A stretch of 41,356 bases of DNA. It comes from a virus. The translations under genes and the position numbers were made by a program. Positions 3,590-16,930 of this stretch are shown here, one piece after another (position 1 is the stretch's first letter; each line of letters starts with the position of its first letter). Location: IMG/VR virus record IMGVR_UViG_3300020159_000958, positions 1-41,356 of that record. One strand, written 5' to 3'. Below the pieces are notes generated by a model that had not been told where the DNA came from, did no database searches, and worked only from the letters and a program-made list of their open reading frames with translations.

Positions 3590-3618
3590 ACATTACAGAA
3601 CTATTCTGCGTTTGACAA
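3590..3618 (-). promoter_or_regulatory. Promoter TTGTCA-17-TAATGT
   Basis: The -35 is TTGTCA (3613-3618) and the -10 is TAATGT (3590-3595), 17 bp apart. The -35 lies inside the last codons of the WhiB gene at 3601-3882. The leader to the next gene, AAGGAGGAAACAAAATG, matches that of the 2776-2804 promoter. Confidence 0.65.
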
Positions 3619-3882
3619 CCTCTGCTGTCGTTTAATTTTTGCTCGTTGTTTTTGGGTTGTTCCTCCCCATATACCAACGCAGTTGTTATCCAATGCGTAC
3701 TCAAGGCAAGCCTTTCTGACTACGCAGGTTTCGCAGAACCATAACGCTCGTTCAGTGGATTGACCTTGTTTGATTACAAACACATCTTTAGGCACATCTT
3801 TGCAATTTGCCCATTGCCTCCACACTGGTTTTTGTTTTTCAATCACTGGGTTCAAGAACCAATCAATACTTGTAGTAGTCAT
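3601..3882 (-). CDS. WhiB-family iron-sulfur transcription regulator
   Basis: WhiB-like proteins bind a 4Fe-4S cluster through four Cys and partner with the primary sigma factor in Actinobacteria. Here C27, C50, C53 and C59 give the C-x22-C-x2-C-x5-C arrangement, followed by the GIWGG turn (70-74) and a basic tail (KQRAKIKRQQR) for DNA contact; there is an extra Cys at 68. At 93 residues it is of normal size. GAGGA precedes the ATG by four bases, directly after the upstream TAA. It probably redirects or restrains host transcription, as reported for mycobacteriophage WhiB proteins. The family call is strong; the targets are unknown. Confidence 0.9.
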   Translation of the reverse strand: MTTTSIDWFLNPVIEKQKPVWRQWANCKDVPKDVFVIKQGQSTERALWFCETCVVRKACLEYALDNNCVGIWGGTTQKQRAKIKRQQRLSNAE

Positions 3883-6053: not shown

Positions 6054-6476
6054 CTATTTTACCTCATCAGAGGGGTTTAACAACCTTGTATGCACAGTTT
6101 CAATGTCTGTCAAAGCCTTACCCACAAAGGGATACCTAGATCTCTTAAAACTTTTTTCAAATTGTTTTGTTTGATCTGCTACACAATCAGAGCAGTTGCA
6201 CCCTTGTCTGAACCGTTGCAATGTTCCGTGACGGGCTAAATGCTTGTCTGTTTTATTAATGTATGAGGAACGTTCTTGTGGTGTGAGTCCACCCCACATT
6301 CCATAAGTTTCTTTTGCGCCAGTCTTCAAACATTCTTTCCACACTGGACAAGATGCACAAACGGTTACGGCAATGTCGTAATAAAGTTGGTGGTTGTCGT
6401 GTTCAACTGGAGGAAACCACAAATCACCGTGGATGCCTCTGCATTGGGCTTTAGTTATCCAATTAGGTGTTTCCAT
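6054..6476 (-). CDS. WhiB-like protein with Cys-rich C-terminal extension (140 aa)
   Basis: The WhiB core spans residues 1-75: C12, C40, C43 and C49 as cluster ligands, then GMWGG (59-63) and a basic LTPQERSSYINK helix. A C-terminal part adds ARHGTLQRFRQGCNCSDC, a motif seen at the ends of many actinobacterial and actinophage proteins, with Cys at 93, 95 and 98. The ATG at 6474-6476 (METPNWIT) is chosen with GAGG nine bases upstream; an ATG two codons earlier is possible. It follows the MazG-like gene and ends at the terminator. A second WhiB gene lies at 3601-3882. Confidence 0.85.
   Translation of the reverse strand: METPNWITKAQCRGIHGDLWFPPVEHDNHQLYYDIAVTVCASCPVWKECLKTGAKETYGMWGGLTPQERSSYINKTDKHLARHGTLQRFRQGCNCSDCVADQTKQFEKSFKRSRYPFVGKALTDIETVHTRLLNPSDEVK
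6056..6083 (-). promoter_or_regulatory. Candidate promoter TTGTTA-16-TAAAAT
   Basis: The -35 is TTGTTA (6078-6083) and the -10 is TAAAAT (6056-6061), separated by 16 bp, inside the last codons of the WhiB gene. A transcript from here would meet the terminator at 6003-6032 after about 45 nt, before reaching the lysin gene. Confidence 0.4.
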
Positions 6477-6789
6477 TAGCATTAGCCTCTCGGTAAAGAA
6501 CAAGGGCGATAACTGCGTATGCCGCCAAATCCATTAAAGAATCTTCTATACCTTCATTGACTAATGCACTGCCCTTTGCAGCGTTTTGTAATCTGACAAC
6601 TTTGTCATTTGCCCGAACAAGAGTTCCAATCCATGCCGGAATCCCCCACTGTTCTGATGACCGTACATTGCCAAGAGTATCTATACCAATTCCGTAGTCC
6701 CTTCCTTTTTTGTCGTGCAACAATGCCATCTCTTCAAGCACTTCAAAGAACATCGGATGTCCGTGTAAGTTTTCAAATCGTTTGCTCAT
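6463..6789 (-). CDS. MazG-like/DUF1599-type nucleotide-metabolism protein
   Basis: The pattern HDKKGRDYG...LGNVRSSEQWG...WIGTLVRANDKVVRLQN, then NEGIEDSLMDLAAYAVIALVLYRE, matches the all-alpha phage family related to DUF1599 and the MazG NTP pyrophosphohydrolase superfamily, in which acidic residues on the helices bind a metal and a nucleotide. The length (108 aa) fits. ATGA links it to the upstream deoxyribosyltransferase-like gene, so both probably tune the nucleotide pool. Enzyme activity is an inference. Confidence 0.65.
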   Translation of the reverse strand: MSKRFENLHGHPMFFEVLEEMALLHDKKGRDYGIGIDTLGNVRSSEQWGIPAWIGTLVRANDKVVRLQNAAKGSALVNEGIEDSLMDLAAYAVIALVLYREANANGNT

Positions 6790-7550: not shown

Positions 7551-7567
7551 TTTACGGGGTTTGTCAA
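7538..7567 (-). promoter_or_regulatory. Candidate promoter TTGACA-18-TACATT
   Basis: A perfect consensus -35 TTGACA (7562-7567) is followed 18 bp later by TACATT (7538-7543), within the inverted repeat. It would drive the gene at 7255-7506 and those beyond it. The -35 overlaps the end of the upstream gene. Confidence 0.5.
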
Positions 7568-9000
7568 TTATCCTCACTTAAGTCTAGTATTTCCGAGTAC
7601 ATTGCATCACTTTGTTGGGCGTTAAAACCCCCATTTGTCAAACGTTTTGTTGAGTCACCGACGTTTGTACCAAACAATCTGCTCAGCACCCCACTACTGC
7701 CTCTTGCCTCAACTTCCAACCTAACCATGTCTCTTGTGTCAGATATGTCTCTAAACTTTTCAACAAAAGAAAACAACCTATCAATCTCATCGGATAGTGC
7801 TGGGTCAAGACCTTGACCTTCTAATTCTTCAGCAAATCGGGCAAACAAAACACGACTTACTTGCATCTCTAACATTGCCCTCAAAGCAGCTTGTAGTTGG
7901 TCTTTTGTTTTGATCTCAATCGGCAATTTAAAACCACACTCCGCATTCTCACGAAACGCAGGACAACGTGACGAGAGATAGCAATTATTACACTGCCTTA
8001 AAAGGTTAGAATTATATCTAATTGTAGATACTGTTTCTATGCTAATTTCACCATCTTCCCCATGTTCTGCAAGGGTTTCGGCTAATGGGCTTGCGTATTG
8101 TTCAACTCCCATTATTGGTAAAACAACTTTTTCGTTTTCGTGCCGCTTTTCTACCCCCCTGATAGTAATATTGTCACCCCCTCGTGCCACATTTTGCAAA
8201 CTTTGATTTTGCGTGAAATTATTACTATCAGGGTCATTTTCAGATAGACCTAATTCTTGCTCGTCATCGTCTTTTGGAGGGTCATAGACCCCAAAAGTTT
8301 GACTTTCCCATGCCTTCCAAGACTTAATTGCGAGTTTGGCTACCTCGTTATTATCGTCTTGAATAATGGCGTCCATGTCAATACCTAACCGCATGATGTC
8401 AGCACGGTGTTTTTTGCGGGAAGATTCTTTTTGTTGTGCTGGATACCTTCTCAGACCATGTCCATCCCATACTTGGGTTTCGCCGTACCGGACAGCACTA
8501 GTCCATGAACCCACTACAGCCGAATCCCAAGCAAGGGTTTCTAAAATGTCGGGCTTTGAGGAAACTGCAATAAGTTTGGCATCCCATCTTGTCATGGCAT
8601 TCCTGATTTTGGAAATAGTTTTACCGTTTACGGCTTTATCACTAATTGCCGCTTTTCCGTATTTTTGGCATAACCATGACAGTCGTTCCATGTCTTCAGG
8701 ATCATTCCATAAAGGAATGTAGCGTTCACCCATCCAAGAACCGTCGTAGTCGGGGCGACCAATTACATGGGTCAAAGTCTCGTAATGTTCTCGGACAAAA
8801 GCATCGTAACGATTCACATCCTCGTCGTTTTCAGATGTGTACAAAATTACTTCCCCGCCGTTAAACATAGTGGGTATGTCTAATTGTTTCTTTTTAGGGA
8901 TAGCAAGGTGAGTTAAATTAACAGCAAATCTTGTAACACCAGCAGCGATAAGCAAAGACCTAAAAGATGATTTTTCTGAGTTTGCAAAATAAATCTTCAT
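7564..9000 (-). CDS. Possible TGT/DpdA-like protein with Cys-rich domain (478 aa)
   Basis: Residues 1-240 include YFANSEKSSFRSLLIAAG, GRPDYDG, YGKAAISDKAV, LIAVSSKPDIL, DSAVVGSWTSAVRYGETQVWDG, then RRYPAQQKE, KKHRADIMRLGID and AIKSWKAWE. This order resembles the TIM-barrel TGT/DpdA family, which swaps guanine for a 7-deazaguanine in tRNA or DNA. I read it by eye only. After an acidic linker (240-270) a CNNCYLSSRCPAF...ECGF segment (about 335-358) could bind zinc or iron-sulfur, followed by helices. ATGA couples it to the HAD-like gene. If the DpdA reading is wrong it is simply a conserved actinophage protein. Confidence 0.5.
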   Translation of the reverse strand: MKIYFANSEKSSFRSLLIAAGVTRFAVNLTHLAIPKKKQLDIPTMFNGGEVILYTSENDEDVNRYDAFVREHYETLTHVIGRPDYDGSWMGERYIPLWNDPEDMERLSWLCQKYGKAAISDKAVNGKTISKIRNAMTRWDAKLIAVSSKPDILETLAWDSAVVGSWTSAVRYGETQVWDGHGLRRYPAQQKESSRKKHRADIMRLGIDMDAIIQDDNNEVAKLAIKSWKAWESQTFGVYDPPKDDDEQELGLSENDPDSNNFTQNQSLQNVARGGDNITIRGVEKRHENEKVVLPIMGVEQYASPLAETLAEHGEDGEISIETVSTIRYNSNLLRQCNNCYLSSRCPAFRENAECGFKLPIEIKTKDQLQAALRAMLEMQVSRVLFARFAEELEGQGLDPALSDEIDRLFSFVEKFRDISDTRDMVRLEVEARGSSGVLSRLFGTNVGDSTKRLTNGGFNAQQSDAMYSEILDLSEDN

Positions 9001-10376: not shown

Positions 10377-10646
10377 TTACCAACCGTCAGTGTTTTTGTC
10401 AAACTTCCTTGGGGCTTCAACTCCGTCATTATCTTTTGCCACTTGGTTTGACTCATAAGCATCGTCGTCCATCATGTCTTGGGCTACAGACTCAATCAAA
10501 TCGTAGTTTTTGTGGTCATCCAAAGGTGTGTCATAGGATGGAATGCGCCCACTGCCCTCTAACTTTTGGCGAGCCTTCTCTAAGTACATAGAGTTAAAAT
10601 CAACTTTGCGATTTGTGTTATGTCGCTCGTCTTTACCTTTAGCCAT
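10377..10646 (-). CDS. Tagged acidic protein, tag copy 1 (89 aa)
   Basis: The protein starts MAKGKDERHNTNRKV, a 15-residue tag also found at the start of the genes at 10861-11064 and 11064-11327. After the tag it is acidic and probably disordered (DMMDDDAYESNQVAKDNDG). The start overlaps the upstream stop (TAATG). Function unknown; the shared tag suggests binding to one common partner. Confidence 0.65.
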   Translation of the reverse strand: MAKGKDERHNTNRKVDFNSMYLEKARQKLEGSGRIPSYDTPLDDHKNYDLIESVAQDMMDDDAYESNQVAKDNDGVEAPRKFDKNTDGW

Positions 10647-10654
10647 TAGTACTC
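10603..10654. repeat. 52-bp repeat, copy 1 (tag-coding)
   Basis: The sequence covers the first 14-15 codons of the tagged gene and the preceding GAGTACTAATGG junction. It matches 11021-11072 with few differences, and 11284-11328 over the coding part only. Confidence 0.75.
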
Positions 10655-10861
10655 ATCCTCGTCTTCATAATCGTGACCATCGTATGGTCCAATATCATCG
10701 TTTGGTTCATAACGTAATTCTGGATTATTAGGAACACTGTCGTCATCATAAAGATTTTCGTTAGTCATCGGGTCAATACCCGTTCTGTCCATGTATTTGT
10801 TTTCTGCTTGTTCTTCAGGAGACAAAGCTAGAAATTGAGAGGACAAATAGTGTTTAGGCAT
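10646..10861 (-). CDS. Acidic hypothetical protein (71 aa)
   Basis: The ATG at 10859-10861 (MPKHYLSSQF) makes a TAATG junction with the upstream gene and is preferred to the longer frame at 10885. Residues 12-25 (LALSPEEQAENKY) are helical; the rest is Asp/Glu/Tyr-rich and disordered, ending DYEDEDEY. It sits between two tagged genes but lacks the tag. Confidence 0.6.
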   Translation of the reverse strand: MPKHYLSSQFLALSPEEQAENKYMDRTGIDPMTNENLYDDDSVPNNPELRYEPNDDIGPYDGHDYEDEDEY

Positions 10862-11064
10862 TATTGACTTGCGCAGTCTTGACACATTTTAATGCCATTT
10901 AAATCTCCGACACCACCACCCGTAACACCACAACTCTCGCAACGGTGAGCATTGTCGTAGTCCTGTGTGTCAAAGCCAACGGGTATTTCAGCGTACCTAT
11001 TACCCAGTGCTTCTTTAGTAACCTTGCGATTAGGGTTATGTCGCTCGTCTTTACCTTTAGCCAT
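10861..11064 (-). CDS. Tagged zinc-ribbon protein, tag copy 2 (67 aa)
   Basis: The tag MAKGKDERHNPNRKV is followed by a short linker and then CESC (42-45) and CQDC (61-64), a four-Cys zinc ribbon. The start is in a TAATGG junction with the upstream gene. A small nucleic-acid or protein adaptor is plausible; function unknown. Confidence 0.65.
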   Translation of the reverse strand: MAKGKDERHNPNRKVTKEALGNRYAEIPVGFDTQDYDNAHRCESCGVTGGGVGDLNGIKMCQDCASQ

Positions 11065-11072
11065 TAGTACTC
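11021..11072. repeat. 52-bp repeat, copy 2 (tag-coding)
   Basis: It is nearly identical to 10603-10654, including GAGTACTAATGGC before the start. It indicates duplication of a gene-start cassette. Confidence 0.75.
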
Positions 11073-11327
11073 GTACCTGTTGCCTGTTTGTTGCGAAGGC
11101 AACAGCGCACTATGGTCCTCTCGGTCAGATATCAAAGGCACATCTTCTTCCTGATGCCGTGCCGATAATTCGTCACTACGAGTATCTCCTTCTGGACCTA
11201 ATCCGTCGTCGTCTTGCAGGGCTAACTCTTCGTCGGTCATGAATGCTCGTGCGATTTCGTCTTCTACTGACAATGGTCTACTAACCTTGCGATTAGGATT
11301 ATGCCGTTCGTCTTTACCTTTAGCCAT
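11064..11327 (-). CDS. Tagged acidic protein, tag copy 3 (87 aa)
   Basis: The ATG at 11325-11327 gives the tag MAKGKDERHNPNRKV and has AAGGAG upstream (CAAGGAGATAGCA); the frame is open further to 11450 but that extension overlaps another gene. A helix (VEDEIARAFMTDEELAL) is followed by a disordered acidic region and a YEY end like that of the neighbour at 10646. Function unknown. Confidence 0.65.
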   Translation of the reverse strand: MAKGKDERHNPNRKVSRPLSVEDEIARAFMTDEELALQDDDGLGPEGDTRSDELSARHQEEDVPLISDREDHSALLPSQQTGNRYEY

Positions 11328-11328
11328 T
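11284..11328. repeat. 45-bp repeat, copy 3 (tag-coding)
   Basis: It matches the coding part of the repeats at 10603 and 11021 but has a different leader upstream of the ATG. Confidence 0.7.
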
Positions 11329-11667
11329 GCTATCTCCTTGTTCGTAATTAATATCTGTCGGTGATTCATATTGAGTATCGTACGCATAATCTGCTGCATC
11401 ATTATCGTCAGCAGAAAACGTGTTTTGCGAACCCGTGTGGTAACCTTCAATCAAGTCGTAGCCATGTCGGTCTGCCTCAGCACGCCGAAATTCCAAATTG
11501 TTTGCTCCTAAAGCATACATGGTTGCGGCAATAGGTTTTCCTGTTGAGCGACTGCGCCAATGAAACGGAACCATGTTTAGTCCCTGAGATACACCCTGTG
11601 AGTCAATGTGGGTGACTTTTCCGTCTGCACCAATGTCAATAATGTCAGGTTTGTTTTCGTTAGCCAT
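11320..11667 (-). CDS. Hypothetical protein (115 aa)
   Basis: A short beta-type N-terminal part (IDIGADGKVTHIDS) precedes WRSRSTGKPIAATMYAL and a disordered, Asp/Tyr-rich tail ending EQGDSNG. The ribosome site is weak; a TACAAT box lies close upstream. No family recognised. Confidence 0.6.
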   Translation of the reverse strand: MANENKPDIIDIGADGKVTHIDSQGVSQGLNMVPFHWRSRSTGKPIAATMYALGANNLEFRRAEADRHGYDLIEGYHTGSQNTFSADDNDAADYAYDTQYESPTDINYEQGDSNG

Positions 11668-12247: not shown

Positions 12248-12934
12248 TTAGAGCATTCCGCCAATAGTTGATTTTTGCCTTACATTACCTATACTCTGTT
12301 CACTTGTAACAGTTCTAGGTGCGGAGGGTGCGGAGGGTGCAGATCTTCGTCGTGCTATAGGAGATTCAGCTTTTGCTGGACGGTTTGGGTTTTTTTTACC
12401 ATAAGCAGGATTTGCTTCTTTCTTTTCTGCTCTTTTAGCAGCAGTTGCTGTTTTTTGTTCTTCAGTCATTTTTACCCCTTTGCGAGGATTTGATGGTTGT
12501 GTACCTGTTGATGTGCCGGGTGTTGTTTCTAGGTTTTGTTTAATGTCTTTATAGTTGTCACCGCTTTCAGAATATTGACTATCCTGAACTACGTTTCCTC
12601 CAGCTTGTGGGGCAAAATTAACTGTTCCTGGAGTTTGAGCTTTGGCAATTCTCTCCATAGCATCAACGTCGGCTTCGCCTCCACCTCCACCTCCTCCAGA
12701 CCCACGTCTGCCATACAGCATGTTGTAGGTATTAAACGGAGAAAACATACTAGCCCCAAGGTCTGCACTTTTAGCTGGTTGATTTGGTATACCAAAATCT
12801 TTTCCGCCAGCACCGCTACTACCTACACTACCCAGTGCTTTTCCGGGAGTTCCCATTTCCACGTCCCTTGGGTTGCGACCTGTGGCGTTATACAACGGTG
12901 CAACTGGGTTGCTACCAAATTTGTCAGAAGCCAT
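12248..12934 (-). CDS. Low-complexity protein with shared FAPQAGGNVVQ segment (228 aa)
   Basis: Gly/Ser/Pro/Ala-rich throughout, with a Gly run near residue 78-85, a Lys/Ala-rich helix (MTEEQKTATAAKRAEKKE) and APSAPSAP. Residues about 103-131 carry VNFAPQAGGNVVQDSQY...GDNYKDIKQ, almost the same as a segment in the gene at 13835-15154. Largely disordered. A virion-associated role is likely from context but unproven. Confidence 0.6.
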   Translation of the reverse strand: MASDKFGSNPVAPLYNATGRNPRDVEMGTPGKALGSVGSSGAGGKDFGIPNQPAKSADLGASMFSPFNTYNMLYGRRGSGGGGGGGEADVDAMERIAKAQTPGTVNFAPQAGGNVVQDSQYSESGDNYKDIKQNLETTPGTSTGTQPSNPRKGVKMTEEQKTATAAKRAEKKEANPAYGKKNPNRPAKAESPIARRRSAPSAPSAPRTVTSEQSIGNVRQKSTIGGML

Positions 12935-13834: not shown

Positions 13835-15154
13835 TTATTTCTTTTTAGAAGTTGGGCGACCACCACGACTTGCGTTTTGGGCACGTGGATGAGATGTTGC
13901 GGTTCCTGAAGTGCTGGCTGTGATACCACGACCACCACTACTGGTTGCTTTACCTGATGTTGTTGCAGTTATCGGTTGCCCATTACCAGTAATGGTTTGG
14001 GTGACATCTTTATTATTGTCACCTTTTTCAGTGTATTGACTATTTTGAACTACGTTTCCTCCAGCTTGTGGGGCAAACGTAATTCCTGAAGACGTTGCAG
14101 GTGCTGATTGTGTTTGCTTTGTACCGTCTTTGGTTTCTTGTGTTTGTGATACTGCTGGGCCTTTTGGACCTGATGGACCTGATGGACCTGATGGACCTGC
14201 CCCACCGCCACTACCAGATGAAGGCGCTGCAGGCGCACCGGGTCGTGATGTAAAAGACTTCATTCGTCCACGCATACGGTCCATAAAACCAGGTTTGTTA
14301 GGGTCTGGCATTTCGCCTTTGTCATTTGGTGTAATCAAAACTGTTGGTTTTGAACGTGGTTTTGGGTCGTCCGGCATTTCGCCTTTGTCATTTGGATCTT
14401 TGCTAACACCAGAAGTTGCTAATTCTTTAATGCGATCTGCACGCTCAGCATCTTTGTCTTTTGTAGTTGCTGGCATTTCTGTTGTAGTGTCGTTTGCACC
14501 CACCCTAGTACCTTTTGATTTTCCACTTGTACCTTCTGCACCTGCACGAAGTTTTGAAGGCTCTACAGGACCAGCTTTTGCTCGTTGTTCTGCAACAGAA
14601 CCAAACGAGTAACCAGCATTTCCTGGTGGTGGATTCTTTTCTCGCTGCTCTTTGACAGAACCAAAGTTTGGATATTCGCTTTTTGGTGGTGGATTCTTTT
14701 CTCTTTGTTCCGACACTGAACCAAAGTTTGGACGTGCTGGTTCTTTGTCTTTTGTTGGTTTATCTTTGCTAGATGCCTTAGGAGTACGTTGTGTGGATTT
14801 TCCACTTCCAGTGTTATCTGCAGAACCTGCTGGACTTGGTGGACCAGAAACTGGATTACGTTCCACGGCTGCGCTTACAGCATCTTTTGCTTTTGCACCT
14901 GCCGCTTCTACGGCGTCTGCACCTTTACCTTTTGATTTTGTTTTTTTAGATGCCATTTTTCTCTCCTTAGCCGCTTGGGTATCTTCCTCAAACGCTTTTT
15001 GGTTGTCTTTCGTCATGCTTTTAGCAGCGGCTTGTCGCGTGCGAAGAGCCATTTCTGTATTCCCAGATTTTTCTTGACGCCTAGCTTCAGATTCATATGC
15101 TGCTCCAATTTTTTCAAAAGGAGTTTTAGGTGTTTTTTTCTTTTTTTCAGCCAT
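13835..15154 (-). CDS. Lys-rich repeat protein with collagen-like segment (439 aa)
   Basis: Residues 1-70 are a charged, probably coiled helix (KKKKTPKTPFEKIG, ALRTRQAAAKSM). Around 130-190 a 20-residue unit (PNFGSVSEQREKNPPP) repeats three times. Two NDKGEMPD copies follow near 255-280. A collagen-like GPSGPSGPSGPKGP lies near 325-338, and then ITFAPQAGGNVVQNSQY...GDNNKDVTQ, shared with the gene at 12248-12934. The end is Thr/Ser/Gly-rich. It is intrinsically disordered and likely virion-surface or scaffold material; function unknown. Confidence 0.65.
   Translation of the reverse strand: MAEKKKKTPKTPFEKIGAAYESEARRQEKSGNTEMALRTRQAAAKSMTKDNQKAFEEDTQAAKERKMASKKTKSKGKGADAVEAAGAKAKDAVSAAVERNPVSGPPSPAGSADNTGSGKSTQRTPKASSKDKPTKDKEPARPNFGSVSEQREKNPPPKSEYPNFGSVKEQREKNPPPGNAGYSFGSVAEQRAKAGPVEPSKLRAGAEGTSGKSKGTRVGANDTTTEMPATTKDKDAERADRIKELATSGVSKDPNDKGEMPDDPKPRSKPTVLITPNDKGEMPDPNKPGFMDRMRGRMKSFTSRPGAPAAPSSGSGGGAGPSGPSGPSGPKGPAVSQTQETKDGTKQTQSAPATSSGITFAPQAGGNVVQNSQYTEKGDNNKDVTQTITGNGQPITATTSGKATSSGGRGITASTSGTATSHPRAQNASRGGRPTSKKK
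14166..14199. repeat. 9-bp tandem repeat coding Gly-Pro-Ser
   Basis: GGACCTGAT on the plus strand (GPS codons on the minus) occurs three times in tandem plus a partial fourth. It encodes the collagen-like segment. Confidence 0.8.
14581..14745. repeat. 60-bp tandem repeat, about three copies
   Basis: Units of exactly 60 bp (the GGTGGTGGATTCTTTTCTC block recurs at 14625 and 14685) encode the FGSVxEQREKNPPP repeats. Confidence 0.75.
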
Positions 15155-16639: not shown

Positions 16640-16930
16640 TTACCTCAGCACTGGTTTAAAGGAGATTGCCGAAATGCTTTCTCCGTTCTCTCCAATAATA
16701 TCATCAAACCCAATAATGAAATAAAGATCAATACCTCGTGGGGCAACAAAACCACGAGCAATTGCAGCCGCTTTTGCTGCTTGGTTTACAGCACTTGCGC
16801 CAATAGCGCGAATCTTTGGAAGATGCCCAGCAATAACTGAGCGGGCAAGAATAGAGCCAACACTTTGAGGGTTGCTACTACCTGACACTTTTAAAACATC
16901 TTCAACCTTTTGGTTAAGTTCTTGTGACAT
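16640..16930 (-). CDS. SpoVS (Alba-like) family protein
   Basis: The whole chain follows SpoVS: VLKVSGSSNPQSVGSILA, then LPKIRAIGASAVNQAAKAAAIARGFVAPRGIDL, then a final strand AISFKP. SpoVS of Bacillus is a small Alba-like protein linked to stage V sporulation; relatives also occur in non-spore-formers and phages. The 96 residues are about the family size. AGGAG lies five bases before ATG. In a phage it may bind nucleic acid or affect host development. The family call is confident; the role here is unknown. Confidence 0.85.
   Translation of the reverse strand: MSQELNQKVEDVLKVSGSSNPQSVGSILARSVIAGHLPKIRAIGASAVNQAAKAAAIARGFVAPRGIDLYFIIGFDDIIGENGESISAISFKPVLR

Follow-up and report, generated by a model that had tools for sequence, protein, structure and literature searches.

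A conserved N-terminal peptide on unrelated small proteins in a hypervariable island of phages that probably infect actinobacteria

RESULTS

Three tagged genes in one phage island

The window analyzed here is an entire IMG/VR virus record of 41,356 bases, itself a fragment, in which every called gene lies on the minus strand. Gene calls were made in Python and are approximate, with small overlapping genes (e.g., around 11320-11667) sometimes mis-chosen. The original prediction described three consecutive genes for otherwise different proteins that begin with the same tag, one residue being changed in one copy. We find exactly these tags: MAKGKDERHNPNRKV twice and MAKGKDERHNTNRKV (P11T) once. 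The genes are not strictly consecutive, however, because the untagged gene C lies between genes B and D, so that the tag is borne by three out of four neighboring genes (Table 1). The tag pattern has three matches in the window and none in 100 dinucleotide-preserving shuffles.

The DNA had also been described as near-identical across the gene starts, including the TAATG junction for two copies. This is confirmed by a repeat of 53 nt, with an identity of 94% between B and D and 79% between A and D. The upstream junction GAGTACTAATG is common to B and D, and the tags of A and B differ only by synonymous changes. A tag-like segment, SHNPSRKV, is present inside a further protein, as reported, and proteins of the same family in other phages bear a true N-terminal tag. 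The C-terminal part of the untagged gene C product (EPNDDIGPYDGHDY...) is similar to that of tagged proteins in relatives, e.g., one in the related record G029.

Table 1. Coordinates of the tag copies, the tagged genes, and the surrounding island genes in the window.
Feature	Coordinates	Strand	Description
SpoVS-like protein	16640..16930	-	Marks one end of the island
Untagged gene with internal tag-like segment	16000..16200	-	SHNPSRKV; DDAPPHGIPRP motif
C3	15176..15664	-	Conserved backbone gene; homologue of BRock gp48 (41% identity)
Lys/Pro/Gly-rich protein	13835..15154	-	439 aa; disordered-looking; collagen-like repeats
C1	12952..13266	-	Conserved backbone gene; counterpart of BRock gp47 (motif and position, by eye)
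C18	12248..12934	-	Gly/Asn-rich, disordered-looking protein between C1 and C0
C0	12024..12224	-	Conserved backbone gene; counterpart of BRock gp45 (motif and position, by eye)
Tag copy A	11283..11327	-	MAKGKDERHNPNRKV
Gene A	11064..11327	-	Tagged; 87 aa; body acidic and unique; no pfam or phrogs family
Tag copy B	11020..11064	-	MAKGKDERHNPNRKV; TAATG overlap with stop of gene A
Gene B	10861..11064	-	Tagged; 67 aa; body opens with shared module TKEALGNRYAEIPVGF, then CxxC...CxxC zinc-ribbon-like segment
Gene C	10646..10861	-	Untagged; 71 aa; starts MPKHYLSS...
Tag copy D	10602..10646	-	MAKGKDERHNTNRKV (P11T); TAATG overlap with stop of gene C
Gene D	10377..10646	-	Tagged; 89 aa; only tagged gene common to the window and its nearest relatives (93-94% body identity)
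DpdA-like tRNA-guanine transglycosylase	7564..9000	-	7-deazaguanine DNA modification type; marks the opposite end of the island

A conserved backbone surrounds the tagged genes

The tagged genes sit in one hypervariable island between the SpoVS and DpdA-like genes, and all strong tag hits in whole or large records fall inside this island. Across 21 phages, the gene order runs from a resolvase and SpoVS, through an intervening stretch, to C3 and then to a large Lys/Pro/Gly protein that looks disordered, tagged genes, and C1. There follow a second, Gly/Asn-rich protein (C18 or its counterpart), C0, tagged genes, C8, C7, and the DpdA-like gene. Tagged genes thus occupy up to three slots, and some of the 21 phages miss some elements. 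The DpdA-like gene is found in 20 of the 21 phages and suggests, by its predicted function, that the phage DNA is 7-deazaguanine-modified. The SpoVS-like sporulation protein is kept in 19 of the 21 and is also found in BRock (see below).

AlphaFold predictions for C1 and C3 were uninformative (mean pLDDT of 50 and 48), profile searches of the PDB with the same two proteins gave no match, and no structural annotation was found for any island protein. T4-like late promoters (TATAAATA), sought as a marker of late expression, are few, scattered, and uninformative.

Short segments are also shared among the larger island proteins. An 87-nt segment (12535-12621 and 13996-14082, minus strand; 83% identical) occurs in two different disordered-looking proteins, where it encodes FAPQAGGNVVQ[DN]SQY[ST]E[SK]GDN[YN]KD; it is the second short segment found to be common to unrelated island proteins. 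The Lys/Pro/Gly-rich protein at 13835-15154, or one of its counterparts, has collagen-like GPSGPSGPSGPKGP repeats. This protein and the relatives' c103, c125, and c163 have a conserved terminal tail, HPRA[KQ]NA..-GR-T, which is faintly like the tag core NHP.R.

The closest isolated relatives lack the tag

Terminase, portal, capsid protein, and an HslV-type peptidase were identified by PHROGs. The scaffold resembles annotated scaffolds, and we recognized the sheath, tube, and baseplate genes by eye. The closest isolated relatives found are the Streptomyces phage BRock group (Borockvirus brock, GiJojo, LuckySocke, Alone3, and pSt2308), of which BRock is a virulent myovirus (PMC7453282). The BRock group has a capsid protein that is about 59% identical, has scaffold, SpoVS, and DpdA-like genes in common with the tagged phages, and carries counterparts of C3, C1, and C0 that are ordered as in those phages, although tblastn gave no BRock match for C1. 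The tag sets the two groups apart: scanning BRock, GiJojo, LuckySocke, and pSt2308 with the tag profile yielded no tagged protein, and tblastn with gene A found no isolated phage that carries one. Given that the BRock group is tag-less despite the similarity of the capsid protein, any receptor for the tag would have to be a feature of the sister lineage alone.

The window contains two WhiB-like genes (3601-3882 and 6054-6482, minus strand), which were recognized by eye and fall in one cluster. Together with the relation to BRock, these genes suggest that the phage of the window infects Actinobacteria. The tagged lineage as a whole consists of uncultured viruses, with actinobacteria as the probable host group.

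The tag recurs across the lineage on unrelated bodies

Using gene A as the query, we found three further records, while a search with 14 aligned tag sequences returned 16; two degenerate DNA patterns widened the record set further. The first pattern used, RHNPNRKV, pulled in loci L004, L007, and L008, which we rejected as tagged loci since the matches appear fortuitous and fall in frames that lack a tagged start. The tag is present in all 31 records searched, 29 of them recognized with the tag profiles and two (G019 and G027) with a broader profile. From 25 records, 70 tagged open reading frames were extracted, of which 64 are distinct. Tags were accepted at a threshold of 12 bits. The lowest row of the profile scores 28.3, and the best score in 915 kb of reversed control sequence is 7.1 bits.

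To avoid the bias of tag-based searching, we gathered 80 loci via the conserved neighbor gene C3. Where at least 5 kb of downstream sequence was available, 51 of 57 loci carry tagged genes, with one to five in each locus, and the remaining six have no tag detectable with the profile. In total, there are 149 distinct tagged proteins, whose bodies fall into 45 groups when any local similarity is allowed or 70 when mutual coverage is required. The tag of the relatives' proteins is located at the start codon, as in the window.

A profile search among phages had been proposed as the check on the tag, and its recurrence across the whole lineage of related IMG/VR phages is the outcome. The opposite case, in which the tag would be a recent duplication with no conservation in relatives, does not hold, and recent local duplication is ruled out as its sole origin. 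The tag is a more general phenomenon than the window showed, and the system is large, clean, and testable. Outside the phages, when 85k genomes of bacteria and archaea were scanned with a degenerate peptide, seven stretches were returned, none of which is a relative, and we thus rejected a cellular origin or mimicry of the tag. No PDB chain is similar to it.

Selection acts on the peptide

The tag consensus extends over ~17 residues: M-[A/P/S]-[R/K/N]-G-x-D-[T/E]-[R/S]-[H/N]-[H/N]-P-x-R-x-[V/P]-x-[R/K]. All 132 distinct tags of 17 residues have Gly4 and Arg13. At position 2, the same set has only A, P, S, or T, the residues after which Met removal is expected, so that the mature tags should lack their Met. 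The core proteins of these phages differ substantially: the median pairwise identity is 60% for the DpdA-like protein, 68% for both DNA polymerase and C3, and 70% for C1. Thus, the tag has been conserved over real divergence.

Three different codons are used at Gly4 and six at Arg13. Among pairs with unrelated bodies, the proportion of identical codons at shared residues is 0.44 for tags versus 0.41 for bodies between genomes, and 0.52 versus 0.42 within a genome. Tags are somewhat more similar within genomes than between them (0.58 versus 0.49; permutation test, P = 0.0005). Since two residues never vary and the agreement of synonymous codons is close to the baseline, the peptide is what selection acts upon. 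As read from these sequences, what is conserved is the peptide, with some local copying, of which the B/D pair of the window is an example. The suggestion of a docking or sorting signal at the protein level is thus well supported, by unrelated bodies throughout the lineage, invariant residues, and near-baseline synonymous sites. That the 15- to 17-residue segment is a functional peptide tag is, in our judgment, very probable.

The bodies are small, diverse, and rapidly replaced

Small and hydrophilic, the bodies are in most cases acidic, whereas the tag is basic. When 53 tagged members were searched against pfam, phrogs, and padloc, they gave one marginal match each to zf-C2H2 (E = 0.0075) and phrog_9188 (E = 0.0049), and none in padloc. 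No internal-protein family in pfam or phrogs was matched by tagged proteins, and in the searches made no known family for the tag or the bodies was convincing. Some bodies have short modules in common, and modules are also shuffled, as between gene C of the window and the tagged protein of G029.

Bodies turn over between phages whose proteomes are 89-94% identical. Between the window and its relatives G004 and G012 (median protein identity of 91% and 89%), gene D alone is common, and the other tagged bodies are not. A finer case is provided by G021 and G029, which are about 99% identical over 2.7 kb except that a block of ~170 nt has been replaced in one tagged gene. The replacement spares the tag together with some 20 residues after it, and the downstream gene C1 is unchanged. 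High turnover of cargo between close relatives is also characteristic of T4-type internal proteins.

One body, ..SAESTGGG.TDSH.., follows a full tag in several phages, e.g., at L113:13153-13392 (G025). The same body occurs at L248:9652-9927 with a degenerate start, MDSQARHPERKTDR, in a locus that is distant and tag-less.

DISCUSSION

A candidate address label for head packaging

A constant N-terminal peptide on exchangeable bodies implies a common partner that reads the peptide. One such partner would recognize the tag on a hypervariable set of small accessory proteins, while recombination replaces the bodies behind the kept tag. In T-even phages, the N-terminal packaging signal is the only shared part of the internal proteins, which are diverse anti-restriction proteins (PMC12373910; PMC3012670). 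By analogy, the most likely partner of the tag would be part of the assembling phage head, and the tag would load its cargo into the capsid for injection with the DNA, as the T4 capsid targeting sequence does. Taken as a whole, this combination of N-terminal recognition tag, variable accessory bodies, and packaging into the phage head is our preferred reading, and we advance it tentatively. Cargo diversity would then reflect an arms race with host defenses, such as enzymes attacking 7-deazaguanine-modified DNA. The DpdA-like gene that borders the island would account for such cargo. The most specific version, a previously undescribed cargo-address system, widespread in actinobacteria-type myoviruses, that loads swapped small injected proteins into heads to match defenses against 7-deazaguanine-modified DNA, is an extension of the same analogy that we regard as doubtful.

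Two aspects of gene position favor packaging: the BRock counterparts gp45-48 adjoin the lysis genes gp40-44, and the island lies next to the DpdA-like gene. Against it, an [LI]xE cleavage motif is hardly more frequent in residues 10-32 of tagged proteins (a fraction of 0.11) than in shuffles (0.07), and the S78 prohead protease is absent from nine tagged genomes, in a search whose control worked. In addition, the island is distant from the head genes, and the tag is missing from some C3-collected loci and from the BRock-group genomes scanned. The S77, gp21-type prohead protease (PF03420) gave no match, and its control likewise matched nowhere. At the position expected for a prohead protease, flanked by terminase and portal, lies an HslV/proteasome-type peptidase gene (L126:17036-17668 in G012).

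The system resembles the T4 internal proteins IPI, IPII, and IPIII in having a short N-terminal signal on otherwise unrelated small proteins and a cargo content that varies between close relatives at a hotspot. Both also belong to virulent myovirus lineages with modified DNA, in our case predicted from the DpdA-like gene. It differs in that the end of the tag has no T4-type cleavage motif, the head module has an HslV-type peptidase and no detected prohead protease of known type, and the candidate cargo genes are far from the head genes. Because the defining cleavage motif is not found, we do not assign the tag to the T4-type capsid targeting sequences, although by analogy it may work like one. 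Encapsulin cargo-loading peptides are another case of a short terminal peptide that sends unrelated cargo into an HK97-fold shell. Those peptides, compared here by description only, are usually C-terminal and hydrophobic, whereas the present tag is N-terminal, basic, and polar.

Other roles for the tag

The tag might instead dock its proteins on a non-virion target in the infected cell, such as host RNA polymerase, the ribosome, a defense complex, or a phage-made hub, where the bodies would act. The invariant residues and codon data speak for a protein-level docking motif here just as they do for packaging. The lack of a cellular tag bearer in the 85k genomes and of a similar PDB chain is also compatible with it, as are small, hydrophilic, mostly acidic bodies behind a basic tag. 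Counterparts of C0, C1, and C3 beside the BRock lysis genes fit late expression somewhat better than early takeover, and we consider such docking rather unlikely.

Attachment to the outside of the virion, with the tagged proteins as decoration or fiber partners by the Gly/Asn-rich and collagen-like island proteins, is less probable again. These proteins and the conserved small backbone proteins are indeed neighbors of the tagged genes, and AlphaFold does not fold the backbone proteins alone, as might be expected if they were parts of a larger assembly. No island protein has a structural annotation, however, and strain-level replacement of bodies is commoner for anti-defense cargo than for decoration.

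We also consider it very improbable that a single ancient protein family, disordered and fast-evolving, left the tag behind as an N-terminal remnant without a special role in targeting. Short modules common to some bodies, and families with tagged and untagged members, would fit such a history, but two invariant residues that persist on dozens of unrelated bodies and through replacement would need a function of their own.

Least credible is a DNA or translation-start cassette spread by recombination as a junction or ribosome-loading element: the B/D repeat with its TAATG junction, a TAATG-type overlap at 35 of 64 tagged genes, and retention of the tag through body replacement are in its favor, but the overlap is absent from the other 29, and near-baseline codon identity between genomes with unchanging Gly4 and Arg13 largely refutes it. 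We therefore rejected a DNA-level cassette on the codon data. From the mobile gene-start cassette of the original prediction, the replacement of bodies behind a kept tag survives; as the main cause it fails, since tag DNA is not conserved across phages beyond the peptide.

Implications

The tag provides a sequence handle for whole families of unknown phage accessory proteins that are absent from the databases searched. Should the tag prove to be an address for packaging, it would predict the small proteins that reach the host and supply a list of candidate anti-defense proteins. The lineage would then be an independent case of T4 internal-protein logic, in which one could test directly which of the unknown small phage proteins are carried in virions.

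A different N-terminus is found in a similar arrangement at L128:16629-17894 (G012 54629-55894), where two adjacent genes have ~34 residues (MAKRKPNPIKPASL.NPNPDYVFPIPEANK) in common and their bodies differ. From its sequence, this locus may represent the same strategy with another tag.
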